The notes under the pieces were generated by a model, which was not told the DNA's origin, did not search any database, and saw only the letters and a program-made list of their open reading frames with translations. A stretch of 39,483 nucleotides of DNA from a virus. The stretch is taken from the IMG/VR virus record IMGVR_UViG_3300047668_000765, positions 1-39,483 of that record; one strand, written 5' to 3'. The translations under genes and the position numbers were made by a program. Positions within the stretch are counted from its first letter, which is position 1; the number at the start of each line of letters is the position of its first letter. Positions 19,090-35,900 of this stretch are shown piece by piece.

Positions 19090-19779
19090 ATGAAATACTT
19101 TATATCAGCACCTTTTGGAAACTATTTAAAACTTCCTAACGCAATTAGCGTAACTGGAAGTTGGACCGTTGAAAAAAGAGAAGGACTTATTCCCCAAATT
19201 TTTAAAACTCTTAGATATAAAAATGGTGGATGGATTAATAAAATTGGATTACGAAATGCAGGAATATATGAGGGTTTAAAAAGAACAAACTCTACAGATG
19301 TGTTGAGCCTTGCCGCAATAGACGAATATGATTGGATAAATTTAGACCGCATAGTAGGTAAAAATTTGTCTGTTGAAATTAATATAAGTTGTCCAAACCT
19401 TGATAAAGATGTAGGAGCGGTTGATCTGCGCGGCTTTGATTTATTTCCTAAAAATAATAGAGAATGGTGTATATGTAAAATACCGCCTACTGCGACAGAA
19501 TGTCTCATAGACAAGATAGTAGATTTGGGGTATAATCAAATACATGCAAGCAACACTTTGTACTCTTTAAATGGGGGTCAAAGTGGAACAATTTTAAAAC
19601 CATATACTACAAGGATTATAGAATATATAAAGAGAAAACATCCCAGTGTCACTATAATCGCTGGTGGTGGGGTTACAAATAAGGATGATGCAGAATTTTA
19701 TTTTGATAAGGGCGCAGACTATGTAAGTCTAGGAACAGTATGTTTTACACCTTGGAAAATAAAAAGCATAATTTCTTAA
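19090..19779 (+). CDS. Compact dihydroorotate dehydrogenase-like protein
   Basis: A 229-residue FMN-type TIM-barrel protein. Motifs of PyrD: NISCPN (98-103, Cys101 at the place of the class 1 catalytic cysteine), a candidate FMN lysine in CICKIPP (Lys130), HASNT (152-156), GGQSGTILKP (162-171), IIAGGGV (189-195) and GADYVSLGT (208-216). The N-terminal part keeps an IGLRNAG segment. It is much shorter than cellular enzymes (about 310-340 residues), with trimmed loops and ends. It would oxidise dihydroorotate to orotate in pyrimidine synthesis; dihydrouridine synthase or another flavin barrel is the alternative. It precedes the Hsp20 promoter. Confidence 0.75.
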   Translation: MKYFISAPFGNYLKLPNAISVTGSWTVEKREGLIPQIFKTLRYKNGGWINKIGLRNAGIYEGLKRTNSTDVLSLAAIDEYDWINLDRIVGKNLSVEINISCPNLDKDVGAVDLRGFDLFPKNNREWCICKIPPTATECLIDKIVDLGYNQIHASNTLYSLNGGQSGTILKPYTTRIIEYIKRKHPSVTIIAGGGVTNKDDAEFYFDKGADYVSLGTVCFTPWKIKSIIS

Positions 19780-24652: not shown

Positions 24653-25213
24653 ATGAAACTAAAGCCAAGTGAAATGTATGATTTAGCAAAAAACGATGAA
24701 ATACAGAATTATATACAAAACAATCTTTATGACCCATGGATAGGAAGCCCCTTTGAAGGATATAGATATATGGGTAATAAACAAAAGGGTGAACTAGGAG
24801 AGAGATTAGTAACTCTAATAATGGAAAAGGCAGGGTACATTGTTGAATTTGCTCACACATCAACTGCTGGATACGATAGAATTTTAAATGGAATTAAAAC
24901 GGAAATTAAGTTTTCTGTTGCACATACAGACACTAAAAAAAGATCAATCAAAAAAGATTGTTTTACAATGAACCATGTCGCAGTTGGTAAAGATTGGGAC
25001 CGTCTTATTTTTATTGGAGTAAATGAAAATCCTAATGAATTTAAGGCTGTGTATATGACAAAAGAAATGTTTGAAAACTGTCTGAAAACAGATAATCATT
25101 TTAATCATCAACAAGGTGGTAAAAATTCAAAGAATGATGATTATATGGTTACGGAGAAAAAACTTAGAGAACTAATGCAATCAGAATATGTAAAAGAATT
25201 GAGTGCATGGTAA
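24653..25213 (+). CDS. PD-(D/E)XK endonuclease, possible restriction partner
   Basis: A 186-residue protein with a clear restriction-endonuclease-like core: KGELGERLVTLIMEKAGYIVEF (helix with Glu47/Glu50), then AGYDRILNGIKTEIKF giving Asp75 and Glu84-Ile-Lys86, then WDRLIFIGVNE. It overlaps the following DNA adenine methyltransferase by 7 bases. This order and coupling resemble a type II restriction-modification pair. Other possibilities are a repair nuclease or an enzyme degrading host DNA. No specificity can be read from the sequence. Confidence 0.65.
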   Translation: MKLKPSEMYDLAKNDEIQNYIQNNLYDPWIGSPFEGYRYMGNKQKGELGERLVTLIMEKAGYIVEFAHTSTAGYDRILNGIKTEIKFSVAHTDTKKRSIKKDCFTMNHVAVGKDWDRLIFIGVNENPNEFKAVYMTKEMFENCLKTDNHFNHQQGGKNSKNDDYMVTEKKLRELMQSEYVKELSAW

Positions 25214-25935
25214 AAACTATACTTGGTGATTGCTTAGAGGTATTGCCTACAATTGAAGATAATTCAGTAGATATGCTTCTTGTTGATCTTCCTTATGGTA
25301 CTACTGCATGTAAATGGGATTCTGTTATTCCATTAGATAAACTATGGGAACAGTATGATAGGGTTTGTAAGAAAAATGCAGCAATGGTTTTTACCGCAAT
25401 GCAACCATTCACAACAATTCTTGCTGCTTCTAATATAGAAAATTTAAGATATGAATGGATTTGGGAAAAACCTCAAGGCACAAACCCCATGAATGTGAAG
25501 ATAATGCCGTTAAAATCCCATGAAAATATCTTAGTATTTTATAGGGAGAAACCAACTTATAATCCTCAAATGTGGTATAGTACACCTTATTCTGGATTTA
25601 GTAGCGATACTGCAAAAATTGGTGAAGTGTATGGCAATGCTGAATCAAAACATAGGGATAACCCAGAAGGATCAAGATACCCAAAAACAGTGATAAAACA
25701 TAAACAAGAAAAAGGTTATCATCCTACTCAAAAACCAGTAGGTTTGATGGAATATTTGATAAAGACTTACACTAATGAATGGGATGTTGTTCTTGATAAT
25801 ACAATGGGTTCTGGAACTACAGGAGTTGCTTGCGTCCATACAAATAGAGAATTTATAGGAATAGAAAAAGAAGAAAAGTATTTTAAAATAGCAGAAAAAA
25901 GATTAGGTACAAATTTAAATGAATTTTTCTATTGA
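25207..25935 (+). CDS. DNA N6-adenine (or N4-cytosine) methyltransferase, beta class
   Basis: A 242-residue amino-methyltransferase with catalytic motif IV first (DLPYG, 27-31) and SAM-binding motif I near the end (DNTMGSGTTG, 197-206), the beta-class order. HPTQKPVGLMEYLIKTYT (172-189) precedes motif I as in this family. The first motif residue is D-L-P-Y rather than D-P-P-Y. The C-terminus NLNEFFY resembles the clamp-binding tails of gp43 and gp55 here. It overlaps the upstream nuclease gene by 7 bases. It could protect DNA against that nuclease or against host restriction. Confidence 0.88.
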   Translation: MVKTILGDCLEVLPTIEDNSVDMLLVDLPYGTTACKWDSVIPLDKLWEQYDRVCKKNAAMVFTAMQPFTTILAASNIENLRYEWIWEKPQGTNPMNVKIMPLKSHENILVFYREKPTYNPQMWYSTPYSGFSSDTAKIGEVYGNAESKHRDNPEGSRYPKTVIKHKQEKGYHPTQKPVGLMEYLIKTYTNEWDVVLDNTMGSGTTGVACVHTNREFIGIEKEEKYFKIAEKRLGTNLNEFFY

Positions 25936-27680: not shown

Positions 27681-27944
27681 GTGATAATGGGAAATAGTTT
27701 ATTTGATGACGATGATGATCAGTCAACATCTGAATGGACAGATATGCCTGAGTTTGTCCAACCAAAGCAAGAAGAATTTGCTAAAGTTATTGTTAGATTT
27801 CGTAACGAAGAAGATTTGAATGAGTTTCAAAAATTGATTGATCAAATCGTAACAACAAGAACAAAGAGTATTTGGCATCCCAAATTGGTTAGAGGTGCTA
27901 CACTGCAAGAAGTTTGGGTTGATGAGTTTTTTGATGAAGAATAA
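27681..27944 (+). CDS. Small acidic hypothetical protein upstream of the glycosyltransferase
   Basis: An 87-residue protein with a GNSLFDDDDD N-terminus, a conserved-looking KVIVRFRNEEDLNEFQKLI and TRTKSIWHPK, and an acidic end. The AGGAG RBS is best spaced for the GTG at 27681; an ATG six bases later is possible. A non-productive ATG-TGA overlaps the GTG. Similar ParB-neighbour-like small proteins occur in phages, but the function is unknown. It overlaps the glycosyltransferase gene by 11 bases. Confidence 0.65.
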   Translation: MIMGNSLFDDDDDQSTSEWTDMPEFVQPKQEEFAKVIVRFRNEEDLNEFQKLIDQIVTTRTKSIWHPKLVRGATLQEVWVDEFFDEE

Positions 27945-28809
27945 TTACCCAATATATGTGGTATCCAAAAATAGGTGGGAGAGTCGTATGACTATGAAGC
28001 ACCTTGATTGGATGGGGTGTGATTATTATATTGTAATTGAACAATCACAATGGAATGAGTATGCTGCAACTTGTGGTAAAGAAAAACTGTTAGTTCTTCC
28101 ACAGTCATATATTGATGATTATGATACATGGGATAACTTGGGTGATAGTAAATCCAAAGGCCCAGGTGCTGCGCGAAACTTTGCTTGGGATCACTCAATA
28201 AGCAATGGTGACAAAAGACACTGGGTAATGGATGATAACTTTGAGGGGTTTTATCGCCTCAACAGAAACCGAATTTTATTCTCTAAAACTCCTAGAGTTT
28301 TCTTAGCGATGGAAGATTTTGCTGATAGGTATGTTAATGCCCCAATAGTAGGTCCAAACTATGCTTGCTTTGTAAAATCAACTGATGCTGTACCACCTTA
28401 CATATTAAATACCAGAATTTATAGTTGTCTGTTGATTGAAAACGCAGTCAAATATCGTTGGAGGGGGCGGTATAATGAGGATACCGACTTATCATTAAGG
28501 GTATTGAAGGATGGTTTATGTACTATTCAATTCAATGCATTTCTTGCTGGTAAACTTACTACTCAAAAAATTACTGGTGGTAATACTGATGAGTTCTATT
28601 CTACAGAAGGTACTTATCCAAAGTCTAAGATGTTAGAGGATATGCATCCAGATGTTGCAAAGGTTGTTTGGAAATTTAATCGCTGGCATCATCACGTAGA
28701 TTACAAAAGATTTAGAAAAAATACCTTAATTCGTCATTCAGACTATACTCCAATAAAAGGTATAAATGAGTATGGAATGAGGTTGGTTGATAGAAAAGGT
28801 TTAAGATAA
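27934..28809 (+). CDS. TAGT-like (TET/JBP-associated type) DNA glycosyltransferase
   Basis: A 291-residue GT-A-like protein. The pattern YPIYVVSKNRWESRMT at the start, CDYYIVIEQSQWNEYA (29-44), GPGAARNFAWDHS (76-88), HWVMDDNFEGFYRLNRN (96-112, with the acidic metal site) and YNEDTDLSLRVLKDG (180-194) is that of TET-associated glycosyltransferases, which in phages add sugars to modified bases such as hydroxymethyl-pyrimidines. No hydroxymethylase or TET enzyme is in the window, so the acceptor is unknown. Start chosen at ATG 27934, where the family similarity begins; no strong RBS. A protein or surface glycan target is the alternative. Confidence 0.7.
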   Translation: MKNNYPIYVVSKNRWESRMTMKHLDWMGCDYYIVIEQSQWNEYAATCGKEKLLVLPQSYIDDYDTWDNLGDSKSKGPGAARNFAWDHSISNGDKRHWVMDDNFEGFYRLNRNRILFSKTPRVFLAMEDFADRYVNAPIVGPNYACFVKSTDAVPPYILNTRIYSCLLIENAVKYRWRGRYNEDTDLSLRVLKDGLCTIQFNAFLAGKLTTQKITGGNTDEFYSTEGTYPKSKMLEDMHPDVAKVVWKFNRWHHHVDYKRFRKNTLIRHSDYTPIKGINEYGMRLVDRKGLR

Positions 28810-28815
28810 TTTAAA

Positions 28816-28838
28816 ATTGTAAACTCAGAGTTTACAAT
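28816..28838. repeat. Perfect 11-base inverted repeat before the aldolase operon
   Basis: ATTGTAAACTC-A-GAGTTTACAAT, 23 bases in the gap between glycosyltransferase and aldolase. TATAAT-like boxes follow at 28846 and 28859 but lack a good -35 box, so this may be an operator, a transcript-end hairpin or a processing site. Confidence 0.6.
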
Positions 28839-28877: not shown

Positions 28878-29681
28878 ATGACATTTATAGCAGCAATGGA
28901 TCATTCTGGTGGTAGCACTGGCGGCGTATTAGAGCGATATGGTCAAGAATATACTGAAGATAATAAAATGGATTTAGTTCACCGTATGCGACTGCGTATG
29001 GTATTGAACGAAAACTTTACAAGTGATAAGATTAGTCATGCAATCCTTTACAAAGATTCTGTTGAAAAGGATATGGTGGCTGTTCTTGCAAATAAAGGTA
29101 TTCATGCTATTCTGAAGGTTGATAGTGGATGTGAAGCAAATGGTTTCTTGAAGGTATTTGATGTTGATTCAATGATACGTTTTGCTTTAGGGGCTGGTTG
29201 TGTAGGAACCAAAATGAGAAGTATTGTTAAAGATATGTATGATATTCCAAAACTTCTTGATCAACAATTTGAGTTAGCGTGGAGAATTTCAAACGCTGGT
29301 CTTACGCCAATAGTAGAACCAGAAGTTCCTATTGATGCGTTTAATAAATCAGTCATTGAAAAACATCTAAATGAAGAATTGATGAATCGTTGTAGAGATT
29401 TTCCTGGCCAACTTATTCTTAAACTTACCATACCTGATATTTCAGAAACGTACAATAATTTGTATGAATACAATTCAGTTGAAAAAATTGTTGGTCTAAG
29501 TGGGGGGTATTCAACTGAGGAAGCATGTACCAAATTGTCTCGCTCACCACATATGAGTGCAAGTTTCAGTAGAGGTTTAAGTGAAGGTCTATTCCATTCA
29601 CAAACAGATGAAGAGTTTAATGAAAGAATTAAATCAAACATAGATATGATATATAAAGCAAGCAAATGGAGTAAAGTATGA
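28878..29681 (+). CDS. Class I fructose-bisphosphate aldolase
   Basis: A 267-residue Schiff-base aldolase of the bacterial class I type. FIAAMDHSGGSTGGVLERYG (Asp8), HAILKVDSG (Lys80), GTKMRS (Lys112), TPIVEPEV (Glu148), ILKLTIP (Schiff-base Lys182), LSGGYS (208-212) and SFSRGLSEGL (Arg232) cover all the catalytic and phosphate-binding positions of the family. It would interconvert fructose-1,6-bisphosphate with two triose phosphates. It has an AGGAGA RBS; the cupin gene begins within its stop (ATGA). With the PEPCK gene downstream it points to gluconeogenic carbon flow during infection. Confidence 0.88.
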   Translation: MTFIAAMDHSGGSTGGVLERYGQEYTEDNKMDLVHRMRLRMVLNENFTSDKISHAILYKDSVEKDMVAVLANKGIHAILKVDSGCEANGFLKVFDVDSMIRFALGAGCVGTKMRSIVKDMYDIPKLLDQQFELAWRISNAGLTPIVEPEVPIDAFNKSVIEKHLNEELMNRCRDFPGQLILKLTIPDISETYNNLYEYNSVEKIVGLSGGYSTEEACTKLSRSPHMSASFSRGLSEGLFHSQTDEEFNERIKSNIDMIYKASKWSKV

Positions 29682-30028
29682 CAATCGCAGGAAAAGTATG
29701 GGGTCAAACAGAATTGATTGAGGCAAATGGTGCGTTAGAATTTCATCGTATTGAAATGGAAGGCGGCGGCGTCTGTTCAAAACATCTACATGAGTATAAA
29801 TGGAATGGCTTTTATATTGAGTCAGGAATTATGCTTGTTCGCGTCTGGCAGAATGATTATGATTTGATTGATGAGACTATTTTAAACGCTGGTGAATATA
29901 CTAAAGTAAAACCCGGTGTGTATCATCAATTTGAGTGTATTGAGCCGGGAGTGGCATTTGAATTGTACTGGGCAGAATTTAACCATAGTGATATTGTGAG
30001 AGAAACTGTAGGTCATTCTGCTTTATAA
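29678..30028 (+). CDS. Cupin, probable type II mannose-6-phosphate isomerase-like protein
   Basis: A 116-residue single cupin domain. Metal ligand candidates are His36, His38 in SKHLHEYKW and His83 in VYHQFE; WGQTELIEANG at the start and a C-terminal HSDIVRETVG resemble the cupin end of GDP-mannose pyrophosphorylase/type II phosphomannose isomerases. It would convert fructose-6-phosphate to mannose-6-phosphate, the substrate of the phosphomannomutase encoded 2.3 kb downstream. Other cupin functions cannot be excluded. ATGA overlap with the aldolase gene. Confidence 0.6.
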   Translation: MTIAGKVWGQTELIEANGALEFHRIEMEGGGVCSKHLHEYKWNGFYIESGIMLVRVWQNDYDLIDETILNAGEYTKVKPGVYHQFECIEPGVAFELYWAEFNHSDIVRETVGHSAL

Positions 30029-30039
30029 AGGACGTTAAA

Positions 30040-30915
30040 ATGAACGCATATGCTGATGCTGGTGTTAATATTGAAAAGGGAAACGAGATAGCAAAATATC
30101 TTGGCTTCAAAGATTTTGGTGCCTCTTTAATGATTGGCGGTGAGGAAGTTGTTATATCTACTGATGGGGTAGGTACAAAGATTTTAGTTGCCGAAGCACA
30201 AAATAAATTTGATACCATTGGTATTGATCTTGTCGCAATGTGTGTAAATGATATTCTATGTAAGTTTGCTCAACCAATAGGATTTCTTGATTATTACGCG
30301 ACAGGGGAAATATGCCTTGATAAATCAAAAGAAATTTTGAAAGGAATATTAAAAGGCTGCGAACTTGCTGGTTGTACTCTTATGGGCGGTGAGACCGCTG
30401 AGATGCCAGGAGTTTATGAGGGGTCTAAATTTGACCTTGCTGGTTTTGTTGTTGGTACTGTAATTGATCGTCATGTGCCTAGAATTGTGCAAGAAGGCGA
30501 TATTCTTGTAGGCATTCATTCAAGTGGCCCACACTCAAATGGATTTAGTATGCTAAGAGAAGTATTACCAATTGATGAAATACCACTTACACCCACAAGA
30601 ATTTATACAGATGAAATACTGAATAACCATCATTTGATTAATGCAGTATCACATATTACTGGTGGTGGTCTTATAGAAAATATTCCTAGAATGTTGGGTG
30701 GTAGAGAACACTCTTTAGAAGTTTCAATTGTAGGTGATTTGGTGTATGGTAATGATTGGTGGAATGATTTATATTTAAAGTGTCAAAATAAAATGGATAT
30801 GAGAGAATTTTTAACAATATTTAATGGTGGTTACGGTATGGTGTTAGCCGTTTCTCCACACAATGTGGATAAGTTAAATATAGAAAATGTTAAAGTAATC
30901 GGAAAAGTGTTATGA
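30040..30915 (+). CDS. purM: Phosphoribosylformylglycinamidine cyclo-ligase (AIR synthetase)
   Basis: A 291-residue PurM. YADAGVNIEKGNEIAKYLG at the start, STDGVGTK (ATP/Mg), DTIGIDLVAMCVNDIL, LDYYATGEI, GGETAEMPGVY, GIHSSGPHSNGFSMLREVL, HITGGGLIENIPR and FNGGYGMVLAV match the enzyme along its length. It is about 50 residues shorter than E. coli PurM, mainly in the dimer loops and C-terminus. It makes the imidazole ring in purine synthesis. purM is a known auxiliary gene in marine T4-like phages. It shares a tightly spaced operon with sugar genes. Confidence 0.93.
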   Translation: MNAYADAGVNIEKGNEIAKYLGFKDFGASLMIGGEEVVISTDGVGTKILVAEAQNKFDTIGIDLVAMCVNDILCKFAQPIGFLDYYATGEICLDKSKEILKGILKGCELAGCTLMGGETAEMPGVYEGSKFDLAGFVVGTVIDRHVPRIVQEGDILVGIHSSGPHSNGFSMLREVLPIDEIPLTPTRIYTDEILNNHHLINAVSHITGGGLIENIPRMLGGREHSLEVSIVGDLVYGNDWWNDLYLKCQNKMDMREFLTIFNGGYGMVLAVSPHNVDKLNIENVKVIGKVL

Positions 30916-31097
30916 TTGAAAAGCAGATTGCAGATTTACAAAGACGTATAGAAAAGTTAGAAGCAAGACCTGTATTATATCAAAGAAAGGGCGTTCTAGG
31001 TAATCCGAATGGTTTCGTTTATACTCAAGGACAAAACGCATTACATGAGCCTGTTGAATTAGAACATATTAAAAATAAAGGACTAGAAAATGACTAA
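30912..31097 (+). CDS. Small coiled-coil protein
   Basis: A 61-residue protein: MIEKQIADLQRRIEKLEARP forms a short coiled coil, followed by a polar tail with GVLGNPNGFVYTQGQNALHE. The start lies in the purM stop (ATGA) and the end overlaps the PEPCK start by 8 bases. Function unknown. Confidence 0.65.
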   Translation: MIEKQIADLQRRIEKLEARPVLYQRKGVLGNPNGFVYTQGQNALHEPVELEHIKNKGLEND

Positions 31098-32325
31098 TAT
31101 CAACATCACAACAAATCCAACAGGACGTAGCCCAGAAAATAAATACTTTTTTGGAGAAGCAACTTCAGAATTATGCACAGAGAGATCAAAATATTGCAAG
31201 ATTGGTAATATGGATGATTATCTTTCATTTGCACATCAGATGCTTCCTAGCGTGATAACAGAATATATTTACAAAAAACCTTTACAATTTGAATCTGCAA
31301 ATATTAGATTTCAAGTATACACCAATGATGAACGTCATGAACAATTTGTAAGAAATATGTTTGACATATTACCTAATGGATTTGGGCATCATGTTCCCGA
31401 TTGGACAATTTGGCACAACACTGAATTAGATGTGCCGCATCCTAAAATTTATGTAAACCTTGATACTAAAACTATGTTTATTGCTGGAACCACCTTTCTT
31501 GGTGAGATTAAGAAAGGTGTGTTTGGTATCATTGGATTTGAACTTCCTAAACGAGATTATCTTCCTATGCATTGTAGTGCCTTTAGGTTTCGGAAAATCG
31601 GAACATATGATGCAACTACTAATTTAATGTTTGGTCTGAGTGGAACAGGTAAGACTACATTGAGCAGTGATCCAGACTATGCGCTAATTAGTGATGATGA
31701 GGTTTATTGGGATAATAACGGCATCAAAATGATTGAAACTGGATGTTATGCTAAGAGTGAGGGTTTATCTCCAGAAACACATAAGACTATTTTTGATGCT
31801 ATTGAAAAAGCGAAGGCAGAAGATTGCTTAGTTGTAGAAAATCCAGGTGTACCAAACGCAAGATTGAGTTACCCTATCACTTGTGTTGAAAACGCATATC
31901 ATAAACCTCAGAAATTTAATCATCCAGATAATATATTTTTCTTAACTATGGACGCAAAGGGAGTATTTCCACCATACAGCAAGATTAGTGGCGAGACAGT
32001 TCGTAGATTTTTTGAAACTGGATATACAAGTCAGATGCCAGGAACTGAGAAGGGCGCAACTGAGATTAAGCCACTCTTTAGTCCATGTTATGGATCACCC
32101 TTTATGCCAAGGCCAGTGAAAGAATACAGTGACTTATTAATGCGAAAGATTCATGAGAATAATTGTAATGTATATTTGATTAACACTGGAATGGATAAGG
32201 ATGGAAAGCGTTTTTCTCTTGACTTTACGCGAAAATGTGTTAAAATGTGTATAGAAAATAACATGGAAGATAAGAGTAAAGAAGTGTTAAAAACTCTTGA
32301 GGATTTAATAGGCAATAAAATATGA
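31090..32325 (+). CDS. pckA: ATP-type phosphoenolpyruvate carboxykinase (compact)
   Basis: A 411-residue PEPCK. It keeps TGRSPENKY (Arg13, matching substrate Arg65 of E. coli), GEIKKGVF (Lys141/142), LPMHCSA (His161), P-loop FGLSGTGKTTLS (181-192), SDDEVYWD (metal Asp202/203), PNARLSYPI (Arg258), MDAKGVFPP and GTEKGATE. Both ends are trimmed compared with cellular enzymes (about 540 residues), and the usual GGTWYGG motif reads AGTTFLG, replacing the active-site Tyr by Phe. It converts oxaloacetate and ATP to PEP, CO2 and ADP. RBS AAAGGA; overlaps neighbours by 8 and 4 bases. Confidence 0.92.
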   Translation: MTNINITTNPTGRSPENKYFFGEATSELCTERSKYCKIGNMDDYLSFAHQMLPSVITEYIYKKPLQFESANIRFQVYTNDERHEQFVRNMFDILPNGFGHHVPDWTIWHNTELDVPHPKIYVNLDTKTMFIAGTTFLGEIKKGVFGIIGFELPKRDYLPMHCSAFRFRKIGTYDATTNLMFGLSGTGKTTLSSDPDYALISDDEVYWDNNGIKMIETGCYAKSEGLSPETHKTIFDAIEKAKAEDCLVVENPGVPNARLSYPITCVENAYHKPQKFNHPDNIFFLTMDAKGVFPPYSKISGETVRRFFETGYTSQMPGTEKGATEIKPLFSPCYGSPFMPRPVKEYSDLLMRKIHENNCNVYLINTGMDKDGKRFSLDFTRKCVKMCIENNMEDKSKEVLKTLEDLIGNKI

Positions 32326-33026
32326 TTCACTATATATTTGATGTTGATGGAACACTTACGCCAAGTAGGGCCAAGATGGATGAAAAATTTAGTTCATTCT
32401 TCTTTGACTTCTGCACATTAAATAATGTATATCTTGTCACTGGTAGTGATACGCAAAAGACCCAAGAACAAGTCGGAAATGTTATTTGGGGAATGACTAA
32501 GCGTAATTATCAATGTTCTGGTAATGACGTATGGGAACGTGGTGAGAATATCAAAAAGAACAGTCTAAAACTACCTGACACTATATGGGGATACTTGAAC
32601 ACCGAAATTAATAATAGTGAATTTCCAGTAAGAACTGGCGGTCATATTGAGGAAAGGGCGGGACTTGTAAATTTATCTATTGTGGGTAGAAACGCTGGAA
32701 AACGTGCTAGAACTCAATATGTGGCTTGGGATAATCATACAAACGAAAGAAGAACCATTGCGAAACGACTATCAAAAAAATTTACGGAATTTGATTTTAA
32801 TGTCGCGGGTGAAACTGGAATAGATATTACAATAAAAGGTAATGATAAATCTCAGATATTGACAGACTTCACTAAATCTGATATAATACATTTTTATGGA
32901 GATAAATGTGATTTCGGTGGTAATGATCATACTATAGCAATGGGAGTGTATGATCTTGGCGAACCAAACTCAGTATATCAAGTGCAAGATTGGAGAGAAA
33001 CTTGGGAACTACTAAAGTCGGTATAA
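32322..33026 (+). CDS. Eukaryotic-type phosphomannomutase (HAD superfamily)
   Basis: A 234-residue HAD enzyme with a type II cap. IFDVDGTLTPSR (nucleophile Asp7, acid Asp9), VTGSDTQKTQEQVGN (matching human PMM2 GGSDFEKVQEQLGN), IEERAGLVNLSIVGRNAGKRAR (109-130, substrate arginines), ETGIDITIKGNDKSQ (164-178) and FYGDKCDFGGNDHTIAM (191-207) are the PMM landmarks. It would convert mannose-6-phosphate to mannose-1-phosphate. This family is typical of eukaryotes and uncommon in bacteria, where PMMs are mostly of the ManB type. ATGA overlap with PEPCK. Confidence 0.88.
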   Translation: MIHYIFDVDGTLTPSRAKMDEKFSSFFFDFCTLNNVYLVTGSDTQKTQEQVGNVIWGMTKRNYQCSGNDVWERGENIKKNSLKLPDTIWGYLNTEINNSEFPVRTGGHIEERAGLVNLSIVGRNAGKRARTQYVAWDNHTNERRTIAKRLSKKFTEFDFNVAGETGIDITIKGNDKSQILTDFTKSDIIHFYGDKCDFGGNDHTIAMGVYDLGEPNSVYQVQDWRETWELLKSV

Positions 33027-33418
33027 CTGCATCAACTTTTGATTTTCTACATGCTGGTCATATCGCTATGTTGCGTGAAGCAAAATCACAATGCGATTAT
33101 TTAATATGTGCATTGCAAGTTGATCCATCTTTGGATAGGCCAGAGAAGAATACACCAGTACAGACATTGGTTGAGCGACATACCCAACTCGCTGCTGTAA
33201 AGTATGTTGATGAAATTATTCCATATCAAACAGAGCAAGACTTAGAAGATATATTATCCATGTTTCCTATAAACATAAGAATTATAGGTGAGGAATATAA
33301 AAACGGTAAGTTTACTGGTCGCGCTATTTGTTCAAAGCGTGGCATAGAGATATACTATAACAAAAGAGACCACAGATTTTCATCTAGTGATTTAAGAAAG
33401 CGAGTGAAAGATATATGA
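33002..33418 (+). CDS. HxGH nucleotidyltransferase (cytidylyltransferase-like)
   Basis: A 138-residue protein of the TagD/HldE-C type. GITASTFDFLHAGHIAMLREAK carries the HxGH nucleotide-binding motif; RPEKNTPVQTLVERHTQLAAVKYVDEIIPY and the final FSSSDLRKRV match the family. It activates a phosphorylated sugar or alcohol with CTP or ATP; substrate unknown. I chose the TTG at 33002 because GGAG lies 6 bases upstream; a TTG at 32990 would place that GGAG inside the gene. It overlaps the PMM gene by 25 bases and the next methyltransferase by ATGA. Confidence 0.8.
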   Translation: MGTTKVGITASTFDFLHAGHIAMLREAKSQCDYLICALQVDPSLDRPEKNTPVQTLVERHTQLAAVKYVDEIIPYQTEQDLEDILSMFPINIRIIGEEYKNGKFTGRAICSKRGIEIYYNKRDHRFSSSDLRKRVKDI

Positions 33419-34599
33419 TTATTAACGGTGACTGTATTGAAGAAATGCAGAAATTAATTGACCAAGGCGTTCAAGTTGATGCGGTAGTTACAGACCCACC
33501 ATATGAAATTGGATTTATGGGTAGAGAATGGGATTCCACAGGAATTGCTTACCGAAAAGAAACTTGGAGACTTGCTTGGGAATTACTGAAGCCAGGTGGA
33601 CACTTACTTGCTTTTAGTGCATCTCGTACCTACCATAGAATGACAGTCGCTATTGAGGATGCTGGATTTGAAATTCGTGATCAAATGATGTGGTTGTATG
33701 GTTCTGGGTTTCCAAAGAGTCATAATATTAGTAAGTCTCTTGATAAGATGGCTGGTGCAGAGCGTGAGGTTGTGGGGGTAGCAGGGAAATCTGGCTCACA
33801 AAGGTCGGCAATGGCTGGCGACTTCAAGGGTGGGGAATATAATACAACCTCCCCCGCCACTGATGAAGCCCAACAATGGGATGGTTGGGGTACTGCACTC
33901 AAACCAGCGCACGAACCGATTGCGGTAGGTCGTAAACCATTGTCTGAAGGTACTGTTGCTAAGAATGTATTAAAACATGGAACTGGTGGTATTAATATTG
34001 ATGCTAGTCGTATTCCTACTAATCCTGCTGTTGATGATGCCCGACTTGGTGGTAAAGGCTCTTGGAAAACTGATAGGATGGGAAGAAATGTTTATATTGG
34101 TGGATATGTTGGTAAGGAAAATGGTTCAAGTGAACTAGGTAGATTCCCAGCAAATATAATGCACGATGGTTCTGAGGAAGTGGTTAAGTTGTTTCCAGAA
34201 AGCAATAGTGCAAGAGTGGGAAATCCAAATAATCCTAAAAGAGGGACTAATCATACTGCCACTAGTTATGGACAAGGGGATGGTAAAATAACACATGATT
34301 TTAGAGATAAAGGCTCCGCATCAAGATATTTCTATTGCCCAAAAGTATCAAAGAAAGAACGTGGTGAGAACAACAAACATCCAACAGTCAAACCACAAGA
34401 ATTAATGAAATATTTAATTCGCATGGTAACACCTAAAGGTGGTACTGTACTTGATCCGTTCATGGGTTCTGGTTCTACTGGTATGGCAGCAAAGGATTTA
34501 GAATTTAATTTTATTGGTATTGAAATGGATGAAGAATACTTTAAGATATGTCAAGAACGAATTGAAGAAATCAATCCACTAGGAGAATTTTTAGAATGA
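33415..34599 (+). CDS. DNA amino-methyltransferase, beta class (tandem copy 1)
   Basis: A 394-residue methyltransferase with catalytic DPPY (27-30) near the N-terminus and SAM-binding LDPFMGSGSTG (346-356) near the end. The middle (about 120-320) is a long variable region that would hold target recognition. The product N6-methyladenine or N4-methylcytosine cannot be told from the motif. It is a paralogue of the next gene: the first 30 residues are the same apart from the one after DPPY, and the flanking nucleotides are nearly identical. It ends NPLGEFLE, a possible clamp-binding tail. ATGA overlap on both sides. Confidence 0.88.
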   Translation: MIINGDCIEEMQKLIDQGVQVDAVVTDPPYEIGFMGREWDSTGIAYRKETWRLAWELLKPGGHLLAFSASRTYHRMTVAIEDAGFEIRDQMMWLYGSGFPKSHNISKSLDKMAGAEREVVGVAGKSGSQRSAMAGDFKGGEYNTTSPATDEAQQWDGWGTALKPAHEPIAVGRKPLSEGTVAKNVLKHGTGGINIDASRIPTNPAVDDARLGGKGSWKTDRMGRNVYIGGYVGKENGSSELGRFPANIMHDGSEEVVKLFPESNSARVGNPNNPKRGTNHTATSYGQGDGKITHDFRDKGSASRYFYCPKVSKKERGENNKHPTVKPQELMKYLIRMVTPKGGTVLDPFMGSGSTGMAAKDLEFNFIGIEMDEEYFKICQERIEEINPLGEFLE

Positions 34600-35900
34600 T
34601 TATTAATGGCGATTGTATTGAAGAAATGCAAAAATTAATTGACCAAGGCGTTCAAGTTGATGCTGTAGTTACAGACCCGCCATATCACCTACAATCTATC
34701 GTGGACAGATTTGGAAAAACATCTCTGAGCGATGATACTAAGACTTCAGAAAGAGCGAGAGGTCGTAGTGACGGTTATGCAAGAATGAGTGCTGGTGGTT
34801 TCATGGGTCAAGAGTGGGACGGTGGCGATATTGCATTTCGTGCCGAGACTTGGAGACTTGCTTGGGAATTATTGAAACCGGGTGGACACTTACTTGCATT
34901 TTCTGCTTCACGCAATTATCATAGAATGGCGGTTGCGATTGAGGATGCTGGATTTGAAATTCGTGATCAAATGATGTGGTTATATGGCAGTGGATTCCCG
35001 AAAAGCCTGAATATTAGCAAGGCGATTGACAAGGCTGCAGGGGCTAAGCGTGAGGTTGTGGGTAGTAAGGTCACTGGAAGGGCTGGCACTAGGGCAGACA
35101 AGAGGAATGCAGACGATGGATTTGAGTCTGGAAACATGGTTATACCAGTCACAGCCCCCGCAACCCCCGAAGCCAAGCAATGGGACGGATGGGGTACTGC
35201 ATTAAAACCAGCGCACGAACCGATTGCAGTCGGGCGAAAACCAATATCCGAAAGTACTGTTGCTAAGAATGTATTAAAACATGGAACTGGTGGTATCAAT
35301 ATTGATGAAAGTCGTATTCCAGCCTCGCATGAAGATATTGAAGCACAAAGAAAAACAAGCGGCGTTGTGGGTGGCAAAAAACAAAGTATTGTGTATGGAA
35401 AAAATTTCGCAGAAAAAAAACAACTCGCTGGAAATGATTTAGGTAGATTCCCAGCAAATATAATGCACGATGGTTCTGAGGAAGTGGCTAAGTTGTTTCC
35501 TGACACTAGACAGGCTGGGAATAAAAAACCAAGTTCTATTACTTCTGGAAAAATGTTTCTTGGTATTGGAGACATTGGAAAGAGGAATCCTGAAATAGTA
35601 GGAGACAATGGAGGTTCAGCCTCACGTTTCTTCTATTGCCCAAAAGTATCAAAAAAAGAGCGTGGGGAAAATAACAAACATCCAACAGTCAAACCACAAG
35701 AGTTGATGAAATACTTAGTGAGACTTGTCACGCCTAAAGGTGGTACTGTACTTGATCCATTTATGGGTTCTGGCTCTACTGGAATGGCAGCAAAAGATTT
35801 GGGTTTTGACTTTATTGGTATTGAGAAATCAGAAGAATATTTCAAAATCTGTCAAGAACGAATTGATGAAACAAACCCACTAAGCGAATTTTTTGACTAG
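34596..35900 (+). CDS. DNA amino-methyltransferase, beta class (tandem copy 2)
   Basis: A 434-residue paralogue of the preceding gene. DPPY (27-30) and LDPFMGSGSTG (386-396) are conserved. It has an extra segment after DPPY (HLQSIVDRFGKTSLSDDTK and on, up to FMGQEWDGG) and a different middle (around SHEDIEAQRKTSGVVGGKKQ), so it probably recognises another sequence. Ends NPLSEFFD, again with the LxEFF tail. The start lies in the stop of copy 1. Its stop TAG forms part of the -35 box of the uvsX promoter. Confidence 0.88.
   Translation: MIINGDCIEEMQKLIDQGVQVDAVVTDPPYHLQSIVDRFGKTSLSDDTKTSERARGRSDGYARMSAGGFMGQEWDGGDIAFRAETWRLAWELLKPGGHLLAFSASRNYHRMAVAIEDAGFEIRDQMMWLYGSGFPKSLNISKAIDKAAGAKREVVGSKVTGRAGTRADKRNADDGFESGNMVIPVTAPATPEAKQWDGWGTALKPAHEPIAVGRKPISESTVAKNVLKHGTGGINIDESRIPASHEDIEAQRKTSGVVGGKKQSIVYGKNFAEKKQLAGNDLGRFPANIMHDGSEEVAKLFPDTRQAGNKKPSSITSGKMFLGIGDIGKRNPEIVGDNGGSASRFFYCPKVSKKERGENNKHPTVKPQELMKYLVRLVTPKGGTVLDPFMGSGSTGMAAKDLGFDFIGIEKSEEYFKICQERIDETNPLSEFFD

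Follow-up and report, generated by a model that had tools for sequence, protein, structure and literature searches.

What use might a T4-like phage have for a class I fructose-bisphosphate aldolase (FBA), encoded in one operon with a PEPCK? The gene lies in a window of 39,483 bases, the whole stretch of DNA analysed here, from an IMG/VR virus record.

The locus and its operon

T4-like genes stand on both sides of FBA: gp21- and gp22-like genes, gp23, gp45, gp43 (family B polymerase), uvsW, uvsX, uvsY and genes for a gp44-like AAA protein and a gp41-like helicase. They confirm the phage origin that a sequence-only reading of the window had assumed. The features of interest are listed below.

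19090-19779, plus strand: short dihydroorotate-dehydrogenase-like protein (229 aa); weak match, much shorter than known enzymes
25207-25935, 33415-34599 and 34596-35900: three N6/N4 DNA methylase genes, the latter two adjacent and overlapping
27895-28809, plus strand: TAGT-family DNA glycosyltransferase (PF20691, E = 1.5e-40; PHROG beta-glucosyl-HMC-alpha-glucosyltransferase), just upstream of FBA
28878-29681, plus strand: FBA, fda-like class I fructose-bisphosphate aldolase of the phage clade; ATG start, 267 aa; Schiff-base Lys182, with Asp8, Lys80, Lys112, Glu147 and Arg232
29678-30028, plus strand: cupin (Cupin_2), overlapping the FBA stop by 4 nt; retained next to PEPCK/FBA in related phages
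30040-30915, plus strand: PurM (AIR synthetase) of purine synthesis, above the NCBIfam cutoff; 11 nt after the cupin gene
30912-31097, plus strand: 61-aa ORF, coupled to PurM and PEPCK, conserved in close relatives
31090-32325, plus strand: compact ATP-type PEPCK of 411 aa; Phe136 in place of Tyr207, all other catalytic residues retained
32322-33026, plus strand: HAD-IIB phosphatase, PMM-like (PHROG 29277)
32990-33418, plus strand: nucleotidyltransferase of the HldE-C/glycerol-3-P cytidylyltransferase fold

The operon runs FBA-cupin-PurM-ORF-PEPCK-HAD-nucleotidyltransferase and continues into methyltransferases. From FBA through cupin, PurM and the 61-aa ORF to PEPCK, the genes share one strand and either overlap, stop with start, or lie no more than 11 nt apart, as expected from the earlier claim that FBA and PEPCK belong to the same operon; from the 61-aa ORF through the methyltransferases, each gene overlaps the preceding one. 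Read from sequence, the gene assignments are strong predictions. The TAGT gene suggests that the phage DNA is modified; some relatives with FBA-PEPCK have other genes in its place. Homologues of the dihydroorotate-dehydrogenase-like protein adjoin GAPDH/PEPCK in contigs G464 and G477.

A near-perfect inverted repeat, TTGTAAACT cag AGTTTACAA, lies at positions 28817-28838, where 68 bases separate the TAGT gene from FBA, and precedes the ribosome-binding site of FBA. The PMM-like HAD gene contains, ahead of the nucleotidyltransferase and methyltransferase genes, a promoter-like site (32859-32887, plus strand) with a 12/12 match to the sigma-70 consensus and a TG before the -10 element. Near FBA, a promoter scan gave counts equal to those in shuffles.

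The aldolase and its phage clade

The window FBA matches the NCBIfam profile NF003784/PRK05377 over its full length (E = 5.9e-68), with 229.4 bits against an equivalog cutoff of 392; it belongs to a phage clade related to this family and is not an equivalog member. Its sequence also matches 2IQT, the solved structure of the P. gingivalis class I FBA (E = 1.8e-42), on which its AlphaFold model (pLDDT 91.9, 21 phage sequences) superposes with a TM-score of 0.93 and an rmsd of 1.8 Å. The TM-score is 0.71-0.81 with eukaryotic and Bartonella class I FBAs, about 0.65 with YihT, and 0.56-0.63 with the archaeal/DhnA-type 2qjg and 1w8s. Profile, 2IQT match and fold bear out the class I FBA assignment. 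A better match to the DhnA/LsrF type, named beforehand as its refutation, was not found: no NCBIfam or Pfam match of the DhnA, LsrF or archaeal type was returned, and both profile and fold are far closer to class I FBA. Pfam PF00274 (glycolytic class I FBA) scores 21.5 bits, just under its cutoff of 22.2, and NF033379 28.8 bits against a cutoff of 250. E. coli FbaB gives only a local match of 45 aa (E = 0.006).

Asp8, Lys80, Lys112, Arg114, Glu147, Glu149, Lys182, Ser208-Gly209-Gly210, Ser231 and Arg232 are invariant across 55 phage and 23 cellular sequences. In the window FBA, the phosphate motif Ser208-Gly209-Gly210 is intact, Glu147 corresponds to muscle Glu187, and Glu149 is the second glutamate. 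The sequence-only reading had placed Asp8, Lys80, Lys112, Lys182 and Arg232 correctly at family positions; its Glu148 is a proline, the glutamate being residue 147. From residues and fold, we infer that the enzyme works via a Schiff base on Lys182. With a dN/dS of 0.09-0.20 against close relatives, the gene is under purifying selection.

A single branch of the aldolase tree, with 1.44 changes per column and 100/100 support, splits the 55 phage from the 23 cellular enzymes; the tree is unrooted, as the P-TIM68 branch is too long for rooting, and only the viral/cellular split is used. Identity is at least 50% between phage enzymes and at most 48% between phage and cellular ones. Phylogeny, an early proposal for checking the gene, thus puts the phage aldolases in one clade far from the cellular ones. 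Phage aldolases start directly at FIAAMDHSGGST, their first residues reading FIAAMDH, and lack the N-terminal ~17 residues of the cellular enzymes. After the catalytic Asp, most carry a STGGVL loop where cellular enzymes have STPKAL. In muscle aldolase this loop includes residues near the C6 phosphate, and we take the STPKAL lysine to occupy the Lys41 position close to it. This lysine occurs in 0/55 phage aldolases, and a lysine, Lys30, stands at the position of an invariant cellular Glu in 52/55. The "full catalytic set" first reported therefore holds as far as all catalytic residues are present, and hides the clade-wide loss of the phosphate-loop lysine. Because that lysine is absent from all phage enzymes, FBP is treated here as the putative substrate.

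In L052, which belongs to the same phage lineage as the window, this locus holds an FBA of 55% identity beside a PEPCK of 87% identity, as if the function at this site had been kept while FBA alleles were exchanged.

Scanning IMG/VR yielded at least 190 viral aldolase loci. PHROGs has no family for the window FBA, the viral structure library no match to it at E ≤ 0.001, and no close copy was found among 50,697 phage records, nor one of PEPCK in isolated phages. The aldolase is thus a common gene, yet an overlooked one.

PEPCK and the wider gene set

This PEPCK is encoded at 73 viral loci in IMG/VR. With 411 aa against about 540, it scores 308 bits with Pfam PF01293 and 264 bits with the pckA equivalog (cutoff 590); it is predicted to work like an ATP-type PEPCK, and equivalog membership is not claimed. 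The window enzyme keeps T255 of the P-loop together with R65, K212, K213, H232, P-loop K254, D268, D269, R333, R449 and T455, the latter ten conserved in 40/40 phage PEPCKs. The equivalent of Tyr207, which we take to be the CO2-contacting residue, is Phe in all 40, a change that would fit the decarboxylating direction. The predicted structure has a pLDDT of 40, from only 7 sequences.

Of the PEPCK contigs with a length of 20 kb or above, 20/36 also encode FBA (10/14 by lineage). Among control T4-like contigs in the same size range, drawn by their gp44 irrespective of FBA and PEPCK, FBA occurs in 1/21, and that one also has PEPCK. Fisher's test on 20/36 PEPCK contigs against 0/20 controls gives p = 9e-6; co-occurrence p values are optimistic, since the contigs are partly related. 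Where contigs above 50 kb hold both genes, FBA and PEPCK lie within 6.5 kb of each other in 6 of 9 (expected 1.6, p = 0.001), in a gene order that varies among contigs. Co-occurrence and clustering are non-random, and the pair recurs across phage lineages, which answers the search first proposed for it. PEPCK is present in only 6 of 36 FBA contigs; FBA is the commoner gene and must therefore also serve without PEPCK.

In phages with FBA and without PEPCK, a plastocyanin/azurin-family copper protein is encoded near FBA in L026 (12328-12756), and a Vut_1-family transporter and a TauD-family dioxygenase in L028 (6357-6971 and 8600-9511). "Staphylococcus phage" FBA records and several PEPCK/GAPDH matches to phage records were set aside, as they look like bacterial contamination (unannotated, and either above 150 kb or tiny fragments). 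Genome-contig matches bearing on the host were confined to contigs in alphaproteobacterial and Bacteroidetes MAGs, one of them clearly phage.

The pairing of FBA with PEPCK is thus confirmed, as part of a wider set than first described, which includes GAPDH, PRPP synthetase and a small HAD phosphatase. In several lineages GAPDH adjoins FBA or PEPCK; in some relatives PRPP synthetase lies directly before FBA or one gene away. Of 11 large contigs with FBA and PEPCK, seven encode GAPDH and five PRPP synthetase; five of the 11 were picked with their GAPDH already known, and GAPDH is found in 2/6 of those picked blind. Gene orders include FBA-GAPDH-PEPCK-HAD1 (L196), PEPCK-HAD1-DHO-GAPDH-FBA (L071) and PRS-HAD1-FBA (G477). 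By NCBIfam, the phage GAPDH is type I (two of three tested above the cutoff, the third 1 bit below) and the phage PRPP synthetase lies above its subfamily cutoffs. E4P dehydrogenase was considered in place of GAPDH, E. coli Epd scoring as high as GapA on phage GAPDH in tblastn, and rejected: NCBIfam ranks GAPDH-I first and E4PD far under its own cutoff.

The small HAD phosphatase gene is present in 32/47 FBA loci, usually just upstream; the sole solved relative found is 9iqw (PDB), named a capsule biosynthesis protein. A cap-less family of such phosphatases (L011 7661-7999 and homologues), near FBA in 26/47 phage lineages, has no Pfam or NCBIfam match.

With E. coli queries, the 11 large contigs gave none of the other central-carbon enzymes sought, among them enolase, phosphoglycerate kinase, triose-phosphate isomerase, fructose bisphosphatase, transaldolase and transketolase, so that the phage module is a partial one. 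The window, a fragment, holds neither GAPDH nor PRPP synthetase.

Proposed role, alternatives and known systems

We think it rather probable that the phage-specific, N-terminally shortened fda-type FBA belongs, with PEPCK and GAPDH, to a partial gluconeogenic module by which T4-like phages infecting heterotrophs supply the synthesis of ribose phosphate and nucleotides. PEPCK would provide the entry step, from oxaloacetate to PEP, and host enzymes would carry PEP to 1,3-bisphosphoglycerate, which GAPDH, phage-encoded in many relatives, would convert to GAP. FBA would then join GAP and DHAP into FBP. This would pass to F6P and ribose-5-P through host enzymes or a HAD phosphatase of the phage, and ribose-5-P to nucleotides through PRPP synthetase, which some of the related phages encode, and PurM. 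The FBA and GAPDH reactions are reversible. Gene identities, intact catalytic residues, purifying selection and non-random co-occurrence and clustering are the observations in support, and an end use in ribose phosphate and nucleotides agrees with PurM and the DHODH-like gene of the window and with the PRPP synthetase of relatives. From these we infer the substrate, FBP, as well as the flux direction, the end product and a host that would be an organic-acid-using marine heterotroph. For the broader proposition we see about an even chance: that the recurrent PEPCK-GAPDH-FBA module of uncultured marine T4-like phages, often with PRPP synthetase and HAD phosphatase, makes ribose phosphate for phage DNA out of organic acids, as a counterpart, seen in no isolated phage, of the cyanophage pentose-phosphate genes.

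It is possible, if unlikely, that the module instead makes hexose phosphates for the glycosylation of phage DNA or of virion or host surface sugars. The TAGT gene directly upstream points that way, as do two products of the operon, the PMM-like HAD and the HldE-like nucleotidyltransferase, and the L082 locus, where genes read from sequence as DegT aminotransferase-like and GDP-mannose-dehydratase-like come after FBA. FBA and PEPCK would supply F6P, the HAD and nucleotidyltransferase would activate it and TAGT would attach it. L001 and L004-L006, however, keep FBA with the cupin/PEPCK block and have no TAGT there, elsewhere TAGT lies kilobases off, and the presence of GAPDH and PRPP synthetase nearby argues for ribose phosphate.

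Somewhat less likely still, the aldolase could condense DHAP with a non-phosphorylated or small aldehyde, the small HAD dephosphorylating the product to a ketose or modified sugar. This would suit the missing loop lysine, the Lys30 substitution and the frequency and capsule-related relative of the small HAD; but the substrate residues are otherwise preserved, Lys80, Arg232 and SGG included, the cellular aldolase L131 also lacks the loop lysine, the window phage has no small HAD beside FBA, and FBP chemistry is the better match to its recurrent pairing with PEPCK and GAPDH. That FBA runs glycolytically, drawing more energy from host hexoses during infection, is improbable: the reversible reaction and the many phages with FBA and without PEPCK would allow it, yet the paired PEPCK normally runs towards PEP and E. 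coli queries found no phage phosphofructokinase. A non-functional passenger gene or host contamination, conceivable for a metagenomic contig without an isolate, is refuted by the flanking T4-like genes, the number of viral loci, the invariant catalytic residues and the dN/dS.

Cyanophages, which draw off sugar made by photosynthesis, are the source of most models of phage carbon metabolism. For the many marine bacteria that live on organic acids, ribose has to come from gluconeogenesis. If the gluconeogenic reading is true, phages of organic-acid-using hosts reinforce gluconeogenesis with their own PEPCK, GAPDH and FBA, which are testable enzymes with clade-specific active-site changes.

2IQT, of the fda/PRK05377 type, shares fold, Schiff-base Lys and catalytic residues with the window FBA at about 40% identity, whereas the phage clade has its own branch, the shorter N-terminus, STGGVL for STPKAL and a score below the equivalog cutoff. 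Cyanophage P-TIM68 encodes an annotated class I FBA (YP_009213665), also in a T4-like phage and close to polB, uvsX and gp41; unlike the window FBA, it belongs to the longer FrucBisAld_I subfamily (NF033379, 435 bits; 28% identity), and the 8.8 kb examined around it contain no PEPCK. A class I FBA carried by a phage is no novelty as such: besides P-TIM68, K01623 (class I FBA) was among virome-associated genes of marine viromes in 2013 (PMC3877843) and viral-enriched in 2014, in a text that calls it transaldolase (PMC4022391). Both pckA and ALDO figure among viral AMGs of trench sediments in 2025 (PMC12448302), there in a KEGG list, with a passage that gives no co-location, subfamily or module. 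Phage FBA and pckA are thus already known as metagenomic AMGs, and what appears new is the linked PEPCK-GAPDH-FBA set, of which a search of the open-access literature gave no description. An aceBA operon in a T4-like environmental virus favours carbon flow to gluconeogenesis (PMC5332604), through the glyoxylate shunt and not PEPCK/GAPDH/FBA; aceA and aceB have no match in the 11 large FBA and PEPCK contigs. Cyanophage talC, zwf, gnd and cp12 steer host sugar phosphates, as proposed for nucleotide synthesis (PMC4022391). Their targets are the pentose phosphate pathway and Calvin cycle in phototrophs, whereas the carbon in the present case would come from oxaloacetate, by way of gluconeogenesis.
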